Part shown: piece by piece, positions 23,539 to 33,528 of the stretch
Position numbering within the stretch: position 1 is the first letter of the stretch
Layout of the letters: the number at the start of each line of letters is the position of its first letter
Assembly (NCBI RefSeq): GCF_028275115.1
Contig: NZ_JAQCNH010000142.1
Span: forward strand, 1-64,000
Reading direction: 5' to 3'
DNA length: 64,000 nt
DNA from: Halorientalis sp.
GTDB taxonomy: Archaea; Halobacteriota; Halobacteria; Halobacteriales; Haloarculaceae
Program-made: the position numbers and the translations under genes
The notes under the pieces: generated by a model
Seen by the model: only the letters and a program-made list of their open reading frames with translations
Database searches by the model: none
Told to the model about the DNA's origin: nothing

Positions 23539-24537
23539 CTATGCGCTGAACCAGGCCTGGGCCAGCCAGGACTCGTAGTTGGACTGTGACTTGACTTCGA
23601 TACTGCCGAGCATCCCGGAGTGTCCCACGCCACAGTACTCGGCGCAGTAAAGCGGATACTCGCCCGTCGACGTGGGCTTGGTGACGATGTAGTTCGACTC
23701 GCCCGGTAGCGCGTCCTGTTTCAGTCCCAGGTCCGGGGCGTGGAACGCGTGCAACCAGTCACGAGAGGTAACGTTCAGGCGGATGTTCCTCTCGTTCGGC
23801 AGTACCAGTTTGTTCGTGTTCTGGACCGTGGCACCGGAGATGCTCGCACGCTCGACGGCCGCGCCACCGACGCTCACGTCGGCGAAGCTCACTTGCTCAC
23901 CGATGCGGTCCTCGTACTGGGACGCGTTGCCGACGCCAGCAGTCACCGTGCCGTTGACGAGGGAGGCGCTGTCCAGTGCACCGTCCGTAGCACTGGAGAT
24001 GGAACCGCCGGATAGTATCACCCCGTCACTGGTGACGTTCTCGACGGTCGTCCCTTCGACCGAAACGTTCGCCAACGACACGTCCGTGGCGCTTGCGTTG
24101 TCTACACTGACGTTCCGGTAGACGAAGTCCCAGTTGTACTTCTGTCCGTACACTTCGATCTCCCTGGGTTGGTCTCCTTCGAGGGTGTTCTCCGACGACG
24201 CAGTGACGTACGGGCTCGCGAGCACCTGGTATGACGCGACGCCGACGAAAAGCAGGATCACTGCCGTCGCGACGGTCCAAGTAATCTCCAGACGACGGTT
24301 CTCCTGCGTCGGCCTGGCCTTGTCACTGTTTCGGAACTTCCAGACGGTGTAAATAAGTATCCCTTCGACGAGGACCGTAATCGGGACTGCCACGTAGATT
24401 AGATTACTGTTCAGTTCCCAGATCGCCCCTTCGGTGGTCGACGCATACCCTGACTGGGCGGCCGCGGGTTCGACCGCCGTCAGCAGCAACGCAGCACCGA
24501 AAAGCGCCAACGCCCCGACGCGCTTGCGGTTCATCAT
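23539..24537 (-). CDS. coxB: Cytochrome c oxidase subunit II (CuA) with a large insertion
   Basis: A 332-residue CuA-bearing subunit II of an aa3/ba3-like haem-copper oxidase. A signal peptide (to about 27) is followed by two membrane helices (about 44-67 and 88-108) and a cupredoxin domain outside. CuA ligands are complete: His263, Cys298, Glu300, Cys302, His306 and Met309 (CAEYCGVGHSGM). Between YGQKYNWDFVY (130-140) and LVLPNERNIRLNVTSRD (244-260) lies an extra segment of about 100 residues, rich in Val/Ser/Asn/Thr with pentapeptide-like periodicity (VSLANVSVEGTTVENVTSDG). Other CoxB proteins have a short turn here. Start is ATG 24537 or 24534. Subunit I is not in the window. It is divergent from ctaB, needed for its haem. 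Confidence 0.9.
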   Translation of the reverse strand: MMNRKRVGALALFGAALLLTAVEPAAAQSGYASTTEGAIWELNSNLIYVAVPITVLVEGILIYTVWKFRNSDKARPTQENRRLEITWTVATAVILLFVGVASYQVLASPYVTASSENTLEGDQPREIEVYGQKYNWDFVYRNVSVDNASATDVSLANVSVEGTTVENVTSDGVILSGGSISSATDGALDSASLVNGTVTAGVGNASQYEDRIGEQVSFADVSVGGAAVERASISGATVQNTNKLVLPNERNIRLNVTSRDWLHAFHAPDLGLKQDALPGESNYIVTKPTSTGEYPLYCAEYCGVGHSGMLGSIEVKSQSNYESWLAQAWFSA

Positions 24538-24670: not shown

Positions 24671-24690
24671 ACCTCTAAATAGTGAGAGGT
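24671..24690 (+). promoter_or_regulatory. Inverted repeat just upstream of ctaB
   Basis: ACCTCT and AGAGGT form 6-bp arms around an 8-base A/T-rich spacer (AAATAGTG), ending 6 bases before the ctaB ATG at 24697. It spans an alternative in-frame GTG (24682). It may be an operator or the core promoter itself; the repeat is certain, its role not. Confidence 0.4.
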
Positions 24691-24696
24691 ACGGCC

Positions 24697-26118
24697 ATGA
24701 CCGGACACGTTTCTCGTCCCCGCTTCGCGACGCTTCTGGCAGGGTCGGCCGTGGGCGTGTACCTGCTCGTCGTCGCCGGCGCGACTGCGGCCGTCGCGGA
24801 CGCCGCGAGCGCCTGCTCGACGTGGCCGGTGTGTTCCCGTCCCCCGACGCTGGCCGAACCGCCGCTGCTGGTGGCCTGGGGCCACCGCGTGGCCGCGGCG
24901 CTCGTAGGTGTACTGGTCCTCGCCACCGCCTGGACCGGTCTGCGACGAGCGACGGTGTCACGGCGGGTGAAGGCCGCACTGGCCTTCGCGCTCGTCCTGT
25001 TTCCACTGCAGGTAGTACTCGGCGCACAGGTCGCGACCACCACCGCCGCGAACCCGTTCCCGGCGGCCCACCTGCTCACCGGGATGGGCATCTTCGCCGG
25101 TCTGACCCTCGCGCTCGCCTGGCAACTGGAGCCCCGCGACGTCGGACGACCGGCGACCGAACCCGAACCCGAACCGGAACTGGAACCGACACCACCCGCG
25201 GAAGAAGCGTCCGAAGACAGCGAGCAACCGTCGCTCCCGGACAGTTCACTGGCGCGAGTCACACACGTCGTTGGCGCGTACTTCCGGCTGATGAAGCCAC
25301 GACTGATGTGGCTGCTCTGTCTCGTCGCCTCAGCGGGGATGGCACTCGCTGCCGGCCCCGACCTCGCGGTCCGGACCGTCGCACTGACGCTCGGCGGCGG
25401 CGTTCTCGCCATCGGCGCGAGCGGGACGTTCAACCACGTTCTCGAACGTGACCGGGACAAGAAGATGGACCGGACGAGCGACCGACCGGTCGCGACCCAC
25501 CAGCTTCCCGTCCGCAACGCCGTAACGTTCGGGTTGGTGCTGACGGCCGCCTCCGTGGCGGTTTTCCTGCAGGTGAACCTGCTCGCTGCCGCGCTCGGAC
25601 TGTCAGCCATCCTGTTTTATAGCGTCATCTACACGCTGGTGCTCAAGCCCAACACGGTACAGAACACGGTCATCGGTGGGGCAGCTGGTGCCCTGCCGGC
25701 CCTGATCGGGTCGGCCGCGGTAACGGGGACCATCGGCCTGCCCGGACTCATGCTGGCCGGCGTCATCTTCGTCTGGACGCCGGCGCATTTCTACAACCTC
25801 GCGCTCGCGTACAAAGACGACTACGAGCGCGGCGGTTTCCCCATGATGCCGGTCGTTCGTGGTGAAGCGACCACCCGGAAACACATTCTGCTGTGGCTGG
25901 CCACGACGCTGCTGGCCGCTGCCGGGTTGGGGGCGCTGACGAATCTCGGCTGGGTGTACGCCGTCACGACGACCGGACTCGGCGCGGTGTTCCTTTGGGC
26001 GGTCGTTCGCCTCCACCGCGAACGCGACGAGTCCGCGGCGTTCCGTGCGTTCCACGCGTCGAACGCCTACCTCGGGGCCCTGCTACTGGCAATCGTCGTC
26101 GACGCACTCGCCGTATGA
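24697..26118 (+). CDS. ctaB: Haem O synthase with CtaA-like N-terminal half (CtaA-CtaB fusion)
   Basis: A 473-residue fusion. Residues 1 to about 145 form four membrane helices resembling half of haem A synthase CtaA (CSTWPVCSRPP early, WGHRVAAALVG with a haem-ligand-type His, AAHLLTGMGIF with another). An acidic-proline linker (about 150-195, EPEPEPELEPTPP) leads to a complete protohaem IX farnesyltransferase (about 200-473) with NHVLERDRDKKMDRTSDRPV, the diphosphate-binding Asp motif, and YKDDYERGGFPMMPVVRG. It attaches farnesyl to haem B for the oxidase whose CoxB is encoded divergently. The fusion is known in haloarchaea. ATG 24697 is chosen over GTG 24682. Its stop overlaps the next gene by 4 bp. 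Confidence 0.9.
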   Translation: MTGHVSRPRFATLLAGSAVGVYLLVVAGATAAVADAASACSTWPVCSRPPTLAEPPLLVAWGHRVAAALVGVLVLATAWTGLRRATVSRRVKAALAFALVLFPLQVVLGAQVATTTAANPFPAAHLLTGMGIFAGLTLALAWQLEPRDVGRPATEPEPEPELEPTPPAEEASEDSEQPSLPDSSLARVTHVVGAYFRLMKPRLMWLLCLVASAGMALAAGPDLAVRTVALTLGGGVLAIGASGTFNHVLERDRDKKMDRTSDRPVATHQLPVRNAVTFGLVLTAASVAVFLQVNLLAAALGLSAILFYSVIYTLVLKPNTVQNTVIGGAAGALPALIGSAAVTGTIGLPGLMLAGVIFVWTPAHFYNLALAYKDDYERGGFPMMPVVRGEATTRKHILLWLATTLLAAAGLGALTNLGWVYAVTTTGLGAVFLWAVVRLHRERDESAAFRAFHASNAYLGALLLAIVVDALAV

Positions 26119-26801
26119 CAACCGACGCCTCTATTTCGAATCGACTCGCGGGACTCAGACCGGACAGAGAGGAATTGCTGATCGCCGCCATGGTCGTCAA
26201 CTCGGAGGTACTCCTGCTGGGTGTCTACTGGCTCGTCAGTTCGAGTGAGTTGACGAGTCTCCTGGCCGTCCGCTACTGGGTCTACCCGTTCGTCTGGATC
26301 AACGTCGGCCTGTGGGCGATATTCAAGACGGTGCCGGCGTCTGCCGACGATCGAGACCGCTGGCTCGCCGGTGTCATTGCGGTCGGCTACTTCGCGGTGC
26401 TGGCGTACTTCGGCGGTCTGGTCGGTCCCGCCAGTAGTGCCGCCGGACGGAGTCTGCGGCTCACGGTGCTGGCGCTGCCGCCGGGGTGGGCACCGACGCT
26501 AATCTATAACGGGGGCGTCCTCTCCGCGGCGCTGTTCCCATTCAAACTCGTCGGCTACGTCGCGCTGGCGTACTTGGTGTACGCGACGGTGCTGGACGCC
26601 GCAGGCTCGGCGGTGACCGGTGTGCTCGGCCTGCTCTCCTGTGTCAGCTGTACGTGGCCCGTGCTCGCTTCGCTGGCGACCGGCGTTCTCGGCAGTGGGA
26701 GCGCCATCGCCGGCGCGGTGTACAGTCAGTCCTACGGCCTCTCGACGCTCGTGTTCGTGGTGACGGTGGGACTACTGTACTGGCGACCGTTCGGGCGGTG
26801 A
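26115..26801 (+). CDS. Haloarchaeal membrane protein downstream of ctaB
   Basis: A 228-residue protein with six or seven hydrophobic helices, overlapping the ctaB stop codon (ATGA). The segment LLSCVSCTWPVLASLATGV has a CxxC pair at the start of a helix, a plausible metal or redox site. The gene regularly follows ctaB in haloarchaea in my recollection, so a role in oxidase assembly or haem handling is a fair guess, but no activity is established. The reading frame is intact and hydrophobicity is even along its length. Confidence 0.72.
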   Translation: MTTDASISNRLAGLRPDREELLIAAMVVNSEVLLLGVYWLVSSSELTSLLAVRYWVYPFVWINVGLWAIFKTVPASADDRDRWLAGVIAVGYFAVLAYFGGLVGPASSAAGRSLRLTVLALPPGWAPTLIYNGGVLSAALFPFKLVGYVALAYLVYATVLDAAGSAVTGVLGLLSCVSCTWPVLASLATGVLGSGSAIAGAVYSQSYGLSTLVFVVTVGLLYWRPFGR

Positions 26802-32046: not shown

Positions 32047-32505
32047 GCGCGTTCCCACCGTCCGAGAGCAGACGTAGACGTGTGTACGACAGTTTCCCTG
32101 ACGACAGCACGAGACTATCCCGGCCTCGACTGCCGGATACAGTCGTTGTACGCCCTTCGTCGGGAATCGTTGGCGAATCGTCGTGTGAGGATTGCGTGTA
32201 CTCGACGGAACCGGCTCGGCAACAGAGCTCCCTTCGTCGGGCCGGCCCCAGTTGGCTGGGTGCGGTCGCTATGGCGACCCTGCCGGGTCGTTCGGAGAGT
32301 CGGGAGCGGGGACCGGCGGGACGGCGGACGCGCTCGCGGCGGTGACCACGACAGAGGGAACTATCTTCTGACAGCGAGAGAATCCCGCCGTTCACGCCGG
32401 GCGTGAATCGCGTAAGCTCCGGGCATACGCTGACAGTGTTGCTGGCTGGATATTCAACGGTGAGTCGCGGCCAATAAATCACTCAAACAGCATTCGTTGT
32501 GTATT
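32047..32505. other. Gene-free stretch before the TnpB remnant, with a hairpin at 32391-32407
   Basis: About 460 bp without a convincing gene; the open frames here are Arg-rich and unlike neighbours. Its last part contains TTCACGC-CGG-GCGTGAA (32391-32407), a perfect 7-bp stem with a 3-base loop about 100 bases before the TnpB start. Elements of the IS200/IS605 type have subterminal hairpins, so this could be the left end; that is inferred. A CCAATAAATC stretch (about 32471-32480) may be the tnpB promoter. Confidence 0.4.
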
Positions 32506-33528
32506 GTGAATCTGACCGTCACCCGCAGTTACGTCGGCACCATTCAGAATCACCGGCAGGTGGGTGACGATTTGGATTCACTTGGAGATTCCGCCGCGAA
32601 AATCTGGAATGTTGCACGCTGGACCGCTGGCCGCATCTGGGACCAGACTGGCGAAATTCCAGACGACGGCCCGCTGAAGTCTTACATGAAAACACGGGAC
32701 TGCTGGAAAAACCTGAACTCGCAGTCAAGTCAGAAGGTCCTTGAACAACTTTCTGACGCTTTCCAGTCGTGGTTCGACGTGCGGCACAAGGATGAAACGG
32801 CGAATCCGCCCGGCTACCGCAAACACGGCGACGAACGGCCACGTAGTACAGTCACGTTCAAACCAGACGGCTTCAAACACGACTCAGAGAATAACCGCGT
32901 TCGACTGTCGAAAGGAAAGAATCTGAAAGACGGGTTCTCTGACTTCGTTCTCTGCGAATACGAAACCCGGCCAGACGGAGACCTCAGCGCCATGAAAACC
33001 GTTCAGAACGTCAGAATCGTTTGGAATGGCGACGAATGGGAAGTCCACTTCGTCTGCAAGGAGGAAGTGGAAGTTACTGAGTCGGCAGGCGACGGCGTGG
33101 CTGGTGTTGACCTCGGGATTAAGAACATCGCCGCAGTCGCATTCCCAGACGAATACGTGCTGTATCCTGGGAACACGGTGAAACAGGACAAACACTACTT
33201 CACGAGAGCCGAATACGATACAGAAGGTGAGAACGGCCCGTCAGAACGAGCAGAGTGGGCACGACAGAAACGCTCACGGCGTGAGACGCATTTCTACCAT
33301 GTTCTCACTGACGCCCTTATTGACGAGTGTGTTGAGCGAGGTGTTGGAACGTTGGCGGTGAGTTGGCCGGAAGATGCCCGCGAAGACGACTGGGGCAAAA
33401 CCGGGAAAATAACTCCGAGTCCGCACGGAGCGGATAGGAGTAACTGCTGTGTGGCACAGCCGGCAGTCCACTTGTTCGATACATCGACGGGGAGAGTAGC
33501 CCTACAAGAACAAGTCACAGGACTGTAG
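32506..33528 (+). pseudogene. tnpB: TnpB (RNA-guided nuclease of IS elements), internally deleted
   Basis: A 340-residue TnpB-like protein, shorter than the usual 400-430. The N-terminal helical/wedge region (VTRSYVGTIQNHRQVGDDLD) is normal; RuvC-I is intact with Asp202 in AGVDLGIKNIAAVAF; the RuvC-II region (VGTLAVSWPEDAREDDWGK, about 280-298) retains acidic residues. Then the frame jumps at about residue 301-311 to the typical extreme C-terminus (NCCVAQPAVHLFDTSTGRV). The zinc finger and RuvC-III, which holds the third catalytic Asp, are absent. It should therefore not cut DNA, though RNA or DNA binding might persist. Start GTG 32506; TTG 32497 is an alternative. Confidence 0.82.

Follow-up and report, generated by a model that had tools for sequence, protein, structure and literature searches.

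A genus-restricted, pentapeptide-like insert in the CuA domain of cytochrome c oxidase subunit II of Halorientalis

In the haloarchaeon Halorientalis sp., subunit II of cytochrome c oxidase (CoxB) carries about 100 extra residues, arranged in five-residue repeats, within the domain that holds its CuA center; calculation establishes the insertion, its periodicity, its restricted distribution and the selective constraint on it. Few parts of aerobic respiration are conserved as strongly as subunit II. The reading that we favor, with a probability of about 40%, is that a β-helix gained once provides, at the donor edge of CuA, a platform for contact with a partner. The CoxB ectodomain would then be a CuA cupredoxin of the usual kind, except that one short β-hairpin turn has given way to a pentapeptide-type β-helix, folded into about four coils from 16 five-residue units with one bulge and one loop, and acquired by a single gain in the ancestor of most Halorientalis. 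Such a platform could shape or tether the approach of a membrane-anchored halocyanin, or of a complex that delivers halocyanin, while leaving the copper site untouched.

The gene lies in a stretch of 64,000 nucleotides, here called the window (Table 1). The protein is recognized by the Pfam models PF00116 (COX2; 59.4 bits, cut-off 22) and PF02790 (COX2_TM; 43.8 bits, cut-off 22.8) and by the NCBIfam model TIGR02866 (CoxB; 179.3 bits, cut-off 147.7), and like the rest of this family it has two transmembrane helices and six CuA ligands. The first-pass annotation had taken the CuA ligands to be intact and, indeed, all six (H263, C298, E300, C302, H306, and M309) are found, at positions that are invariant in 42 haloarchaeal CoxB proteins. 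This coxB is the sole COX2-family match in the source genome assembly, which is about 92% complete, and the one match to its subunit I partner, COX1 (508.7 bits), is on a different contig. The neighborhood is conserved as it is for other coxB genes: most relatives have the same flanking genes, namely the ctaA-like/ctaB fusion, the gene for the DUF7546 protein, and ABC transporter genes, which marks the insert-bearing coxB as an orthologue of theirs rather than a paralogue. Elsewhere in the window (32497–33528, plus strand), there is an open reading frame that, judged by eye, looks like one of the TnpB/IS200-IS605 type and is apparently shortened.

Table 1. Features of the coxB region (window positions; residues are those of CoxB).
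Feature	Position	Strand	Basis
coxB, cytochrome c oxidase subunit II, 332 aa plus stop	23539..24537	-	open reading frame and COX2-family match
Transmembrane helix 1 (predicted), residues 34-67	24337..24438	-	AlphaFold2/DSSP; Pfam COX2_TM 33-105
Transmembrane helix 2 (predicted), residues 78-106	24220..24306	-	AlphaFold2/DSSP; Pfam COX2_TM
Y134-N135-W136, counterpart of bovine W104-Y105-W106, just before the insert	24130..24138	-	alignment with 7jro_b
Insert, residues 141-241, Halorientalis-specific pentapeptide-like domain	23815..24117	-	alignment, distribution, periodicity, profile
Pentad block 1, residues 143-182, eight contiguous units: VSVDN ASATD VSLAN VSVEG TTVEN VTSDG VILSG GSISS	23992..24111	-	sequence; register from periodicity
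Three-residue bulge ATD, residues 183-185	23983..23991	-	coincides with pLDDT dip
Pentad block 2, residues 186-200: GALDS ASLVN GTVTA	23938..23982	-	sequence
Loop of 15 residues, 201-215	23893..23937	-	length varies among homologues; short helix predicted
Pentad block 3, residues 216-240: VSFAD VSVGG AAVER ASISG ATVQN	23818..23892	-	sequence
CuA ligand His263	23749..23751	-	aligns with bovine 161; equal-length match of 238-326 to 136-224
CuA ligand loop C298-A-E300-Y-C302-G-V-G-H306-S-G-M309	23611..23646	-	sequence; ligand positions invariant
ctaA-like/ctaB (UbiA) fusion, divergent to coxB	24682..26118	+	neighbor conserved with and without the insert
DUF7546 membrane protein	26115..26801	+	conserved coxB neighbor

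In haloarchaeal and Thermus caa3 subunits, the place of the insert is taken by a turn of only 6–7 residues. At this place, a congener that lacks the insert (genome G003) reads FHYPEQDINSTNTLVMP, while the CoxB of the window reads FVY, then the insert, then NKLVLP. The initial description of ordinary subunit II as having a tight turn here holds for the haloarchaea and for Thermus caa3 but not for mitochondrial and proteobacterial subunits, in which the loop is longer. Within the insert, 16 five-residue units follow one another as eight contiguous units, then three, then five, with positions 1 and 3 of each read as the inward ones; if four units make one coil, this arrangement reads as about four coils of a pentapeptide-type β-helix. 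The bulge between the first two blocks is missing in two homologues (L049 and L050), in which the pentad register is continuous.

The five-residue spacing was assessed from the pairing of V, I, L, M, and F at lag 5, in comparison with composition-preserving shuffles. The window insert gave z = 3.6 (p = 0.001), and the seven homologous inserts gave z = 3.6–5.2, with the highest value (5.2) in L050, these values not being independent since the homologues share ancestry. Lag 10 was raised too, and the remaining lags were not. In the controls (the CuA tail and 114 windows from insert-free CoxB), the mean z was 0.4, and the maximum in the windows was 2.9. Moreover, two homologous inserts that are only 30–37% identical to that of the window keep the five-residue pattern nonetheless. 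The extra segment with pentapeptide-like spacing noticed at first pass is thus a real insertion, with a pattern beyond chance.

What might such a segment fold into? AlphaFold2 was given full-length CoxB with 42 sequences in the input, only four of which had the insert. In the resulting model of the full chain, the repeat blocks reach a pLDDT of about 91–93, above that of the membrane helices, with dips at the bulge (80) and at the loop (84), and the β assignment is almost continuous at residues 135–169, 172–176, 188–200, and 215–241; the prediction is therefore one of confident β structure rather than disorder. The insert modelled alone from four sequences has a pLDDT of 35 and yields an uninformative model; set against about 92 in the chain, this value ties the confidence in the fold to its surroundings in the cupredoxin domain. 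When a profile of eight inserts was compared with the PDB sequences, the matches were exclusively to pentapeptide-repeat proteins (best E 5.4e-6; 4yfo, 2j8k, and 3n90), including Np275/Np276 and, weakly, a thylakoid-lumen protein; because repeats align easily, these matches support a class of fold and not common descent. A whole-chain Foldseek search returned oxidase subunits in all of its best 50 PDB rows and so nothing specific on the insert. Viral sequences matched only weakly, at E 0.005 or worse, some of them being phage tail-fibre proteins aligned over about 100 columns; these matches were not relied on.

The insert resembles the pentapeptide repeat proteins (PF00805 and relatives, including Np275/Np276, the designed protein beta1, and TL15) in its five-residue period and its two inward positions, and at least eight contiguous five-residue repeats are present (residues 143–182). 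It differs from them in being placed within a cupredoxin domain and in its central residue, for which the published consensus is L or F (PMC8145042); among the 16 units, V or I predominates there and L or F is in the minority. The window insert gave no match to the Pfam pentapeptide models, and its sub-threshold matches, which were to unrelated families alone, were discarded; the best values among the homologous inserts were E 0.0075 with Pentapeptide_3 and 0.01 with Pentapeptide, short of the gathering scores. Owing to these scores and to the central V or I, the insert is called pentapeptide-like. A β-helical fold is predicted, and we consider it very probable. The β-helix side domain proposed at first pass is supported in part, by the predicted β structure and by the PDB matches; that proposal would also predict a right-handed helix docked near CuA. 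Four coils would part the ends of the helix widely and would fit a hairpin insertion awkwardly unless strands or the 15-residue loop compensate.

The distribution of the insert was followed in a sample of 42 CoxB loci from public genomes. Full-length matches came from three Halorientalis (H. pallida, H. regularis, and H. persicus); the other loci were shorter, and the query aligned to them around the insert. Seven of eight Halorientalis genomes have the insert, G003 being the one without. No CoxB outside those seven genomes matched across the insert among the matches listed for 146 Haloarculaceae genomes, and no further insert-bearing CoxB turned up in 392 genomes sampled from the order, whether the query was the insert by itself or the eight-insert profile. 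The best-scoring protein matches elsewhere in the order were largely pentapeptide or NVT-repeat proteins; the CuA motif was absent from the proteins recovered around the best matches outside the genus, and four such loci gave no local match. The idea that the insert is common in haloarchaea was therefore rejected. In a tree of the CoxB core with the insert columns removed, a single branch (support 97/77, unstarred) separates the eight insert-bearing rows from the others, and the insert requires a single change, a gain.

As regards its source, no pentapeptide (PF00805) protein that might have donated the repeat was found in the window's genome. Four secreted haloarchaeal proteins (L098, L107, L126, and L132) consist of pentads with N-V-T/S corners similar to those of the insert, although these proteins stand alone and are secreted, unlike the insert inside CoxB. 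L098 and L107 were scanned and had no Pfam match above cut-off. Searches with the L107 repeat and with the CoxB insert each retrieve the other (E 4e-4 when L107 is the query); here again, since repeats align easily, the likeness is no proof of common ancestry. These four may belong together as pentapeptide-like proteins that are glycosylated, and the insert might derive from such proteins.

The insert is under selective constraint. Against the four closest relatives, its dN/dS is about 0.19–0.23, with 0.17–0.33 for the CuA domain, and at larger distances it is 0.5–0.8, above the CuA domain (both by NG86, with uncertain dS).

The position of the insert is suggestive of a function. In the bovine enzyme, W104-Y105-W106 forms the strand for electron entry and contact, and the residues of subunit II that contact cytochrome c are Tyr105, Ser117, Asp119, Tyr121, and Asp139 (PMC5286356). 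N135 of CoxB aligns to Tyr105, T241 aligns to Asp139, and the insert falls between them, in place of the loop that holds Ser117, Asp119, and Tyr121, which are three of the five contacts. By sequence position only, the place is also that of the donor-contact loop of the Corynebacterium glutamicum CtaC type. At the site of bovine Trp104 and Paracoccus Trp121, Y134 (24136–24138) is a nearly invariant Tyr in the 42 CoxB proteins, with or without an insert. Judged by this position alone, the insert would most likely serve to contact the donor, or else a partner delivering it; both this docking role and the choice of partner are inferred.

Halocyanin is the presumed one-electron carrier of haloarchaea (PMC8305020). 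A halocyanin gene (L115:7996-8694, on contig C29 of the source genome, G000) lies about 1.2 kb from the only coxA, on a contig other than that of coxB, and its product is predicted to be anchored in the membrane at its C-terminus. In G002 and G003, it is matched best within frames that are longer (390 and 457 aa) and contain two tandem matches. A link between the insert and halocyanin architecture was dropped, as the longer form with tandem matches occurs both in G002, which has the insert, and in G003, which does not; no pattern in the coxA-linked halocyanin tracks the insert. With respect to complex III, cytochrome b (PF00033) gave no match in the window's assembly and is present in all seven other Halorientalis genomes, so that a loss of complex III was rejected as the reason for the insert; its absence from this assembly is probably a gap.

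The platform reading thus has points on both sides. In its favor, besides the distribution, single gain, periodicity, full-chain prediction, PDB matches and position given above, are the dN/dS of about 0.2 among close relatives, which is like that of the CuA domain, the halocyanin gene near the only coxA, and a precedent: at its cytochrome c site, the CtaC of C. glutamicum bears an additional charged loop, for which binding of the partner cytochrome has been suggested (PMC5040959). Against it count the pLDDT of 35 for the insert alone, the Pfam cut-offs that were not reached, the central residues that are mostly V or I, the awkward fit of four coils to a hairpin, the faster divergence at a distance, and a halocyanin that does not track the insert.

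Another possibility is that what the insert binds is complex III, an accessory protein, or a different subunit of the oxidase, in which case it would help to assemble a supercomplex instead of docking the donor. There are precedents for this: in Tetrahymena, an insertion in COX2 recruits another complex, a Tim hexamer (PMC10060162), and the pentapeptide β-helix of SV2C uses an open edge strand for contact with a protein (PMC8145042). The presence of cytochrome b genes in all seven congeners also speaks for it, but cytochrome b is equally present in genera without the insert, and no co-occurring partner was found. We regard this explanation as unlikely, albeit with a real share of the probability.

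The insert could also be a tolerated ornament, that is, an expanded repeat or a captured fragment that folds and has no specific task. The site is a known hot spot for insertions (PMC5374615), G003 does without the insert, and the insert outpaces the rest of CoxB in divergence at larger distances. Such an ornament would hardly be expected to show a dN/dS of about 0.2 among close relatives, to be kept in seven of eight congeners, and to preserve its register at 30–37% identity, and we hold this explanation to be slightly less likely again.

An explanation of a different sort is that the insert is mainly an acidic surface domain, bearing glycans, that would keep the ectodomain stable at high salt or hold it in place beneath the S-layer. 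The window insert has 12 D/E as opposed to 3 K/R, as well as six N-x-S/T sequons (at N142, N147, N157, N167, N195, and N204), when 1.9 are expected by shuffling (p = 0.003); sequons are enriched in seven of eight homologous inserts, and homologues of the oligosaccharyltransferase STT3 are present in the source genome. However, the excess is partly a by-product of the repeat, because pentads that end in N and are followed by V-S/T generate sequons by themselves; the L050 insert has only two, and glycosylation is itself predicted from the sequons. This explanation is improbable. A combination of glycans with the platform reading, in which a pentapeptide β-helix recruited once would form a glycan-bearing docking tower for halocyanin and replace the charged contact loop of cytochrome c-type oxidases, is a doubtful proposal. 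Finally, that the insert is a disordered, low-complexity extension whose periodicity reflects composition only, as its richness in Ser, Thr, Gly, and Val and the poor isolated model might suggest, is very improbable given a periodicity above that of composition-preserving shuffles, the full-chain pLDDT of about 92, a conserved pattern of buried positions, and PDB matches exclusively to pentapeptide proteins.

The platform reading may be placed among systems already described. This CoxB differs from its other family members by about 100 residues in the hairpin after W136, seen in Halorientalis only. The extra segment of C. glutamicum CtaC is at the same cytochrome c site of subunit II, but it is described as a charged loop, and no β-helix has been reported for it. 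In-frame insertions in COX2 at the site of the insert are known in other lineages, including ciliates (PMC5374615); the ciliate insertion, at the corresponding site, is mitochondrial, has another content and partner, and, as far as it is described, has no pentapeptide repeat. The luminal domain of SV2C is likewise a non-cytoplasmic β-helix in a membrane protein, and is glycosylated. In the open-license literature on pentapeptide repeats with cytochrome oxidase, on the Halorientalis oxidase, and on haloarchaeal pentapeptide repeats, no description of the insert domain was found. Hence the first impression that no such case had been described has to be narrowed: insertions at the site have been, with a different content. 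The site and the principle are known, and it is the content of the insert in the Halorientalis lineage that appears to be new.

To our knowledge, most pentapeptide-type repeat proteins have no known function, and the insert would place such repeats in an unusual setting, within a redox enzyme. It is a predicted folded repeat, gained once and restricted to one genus, at the spot where other oxidases bind cytochrome c. The existence of a closely related congener without it provides a clean natural comparison, in which one oxidase can be viewed with its donor edge either rebuilt or in the ordinary form.
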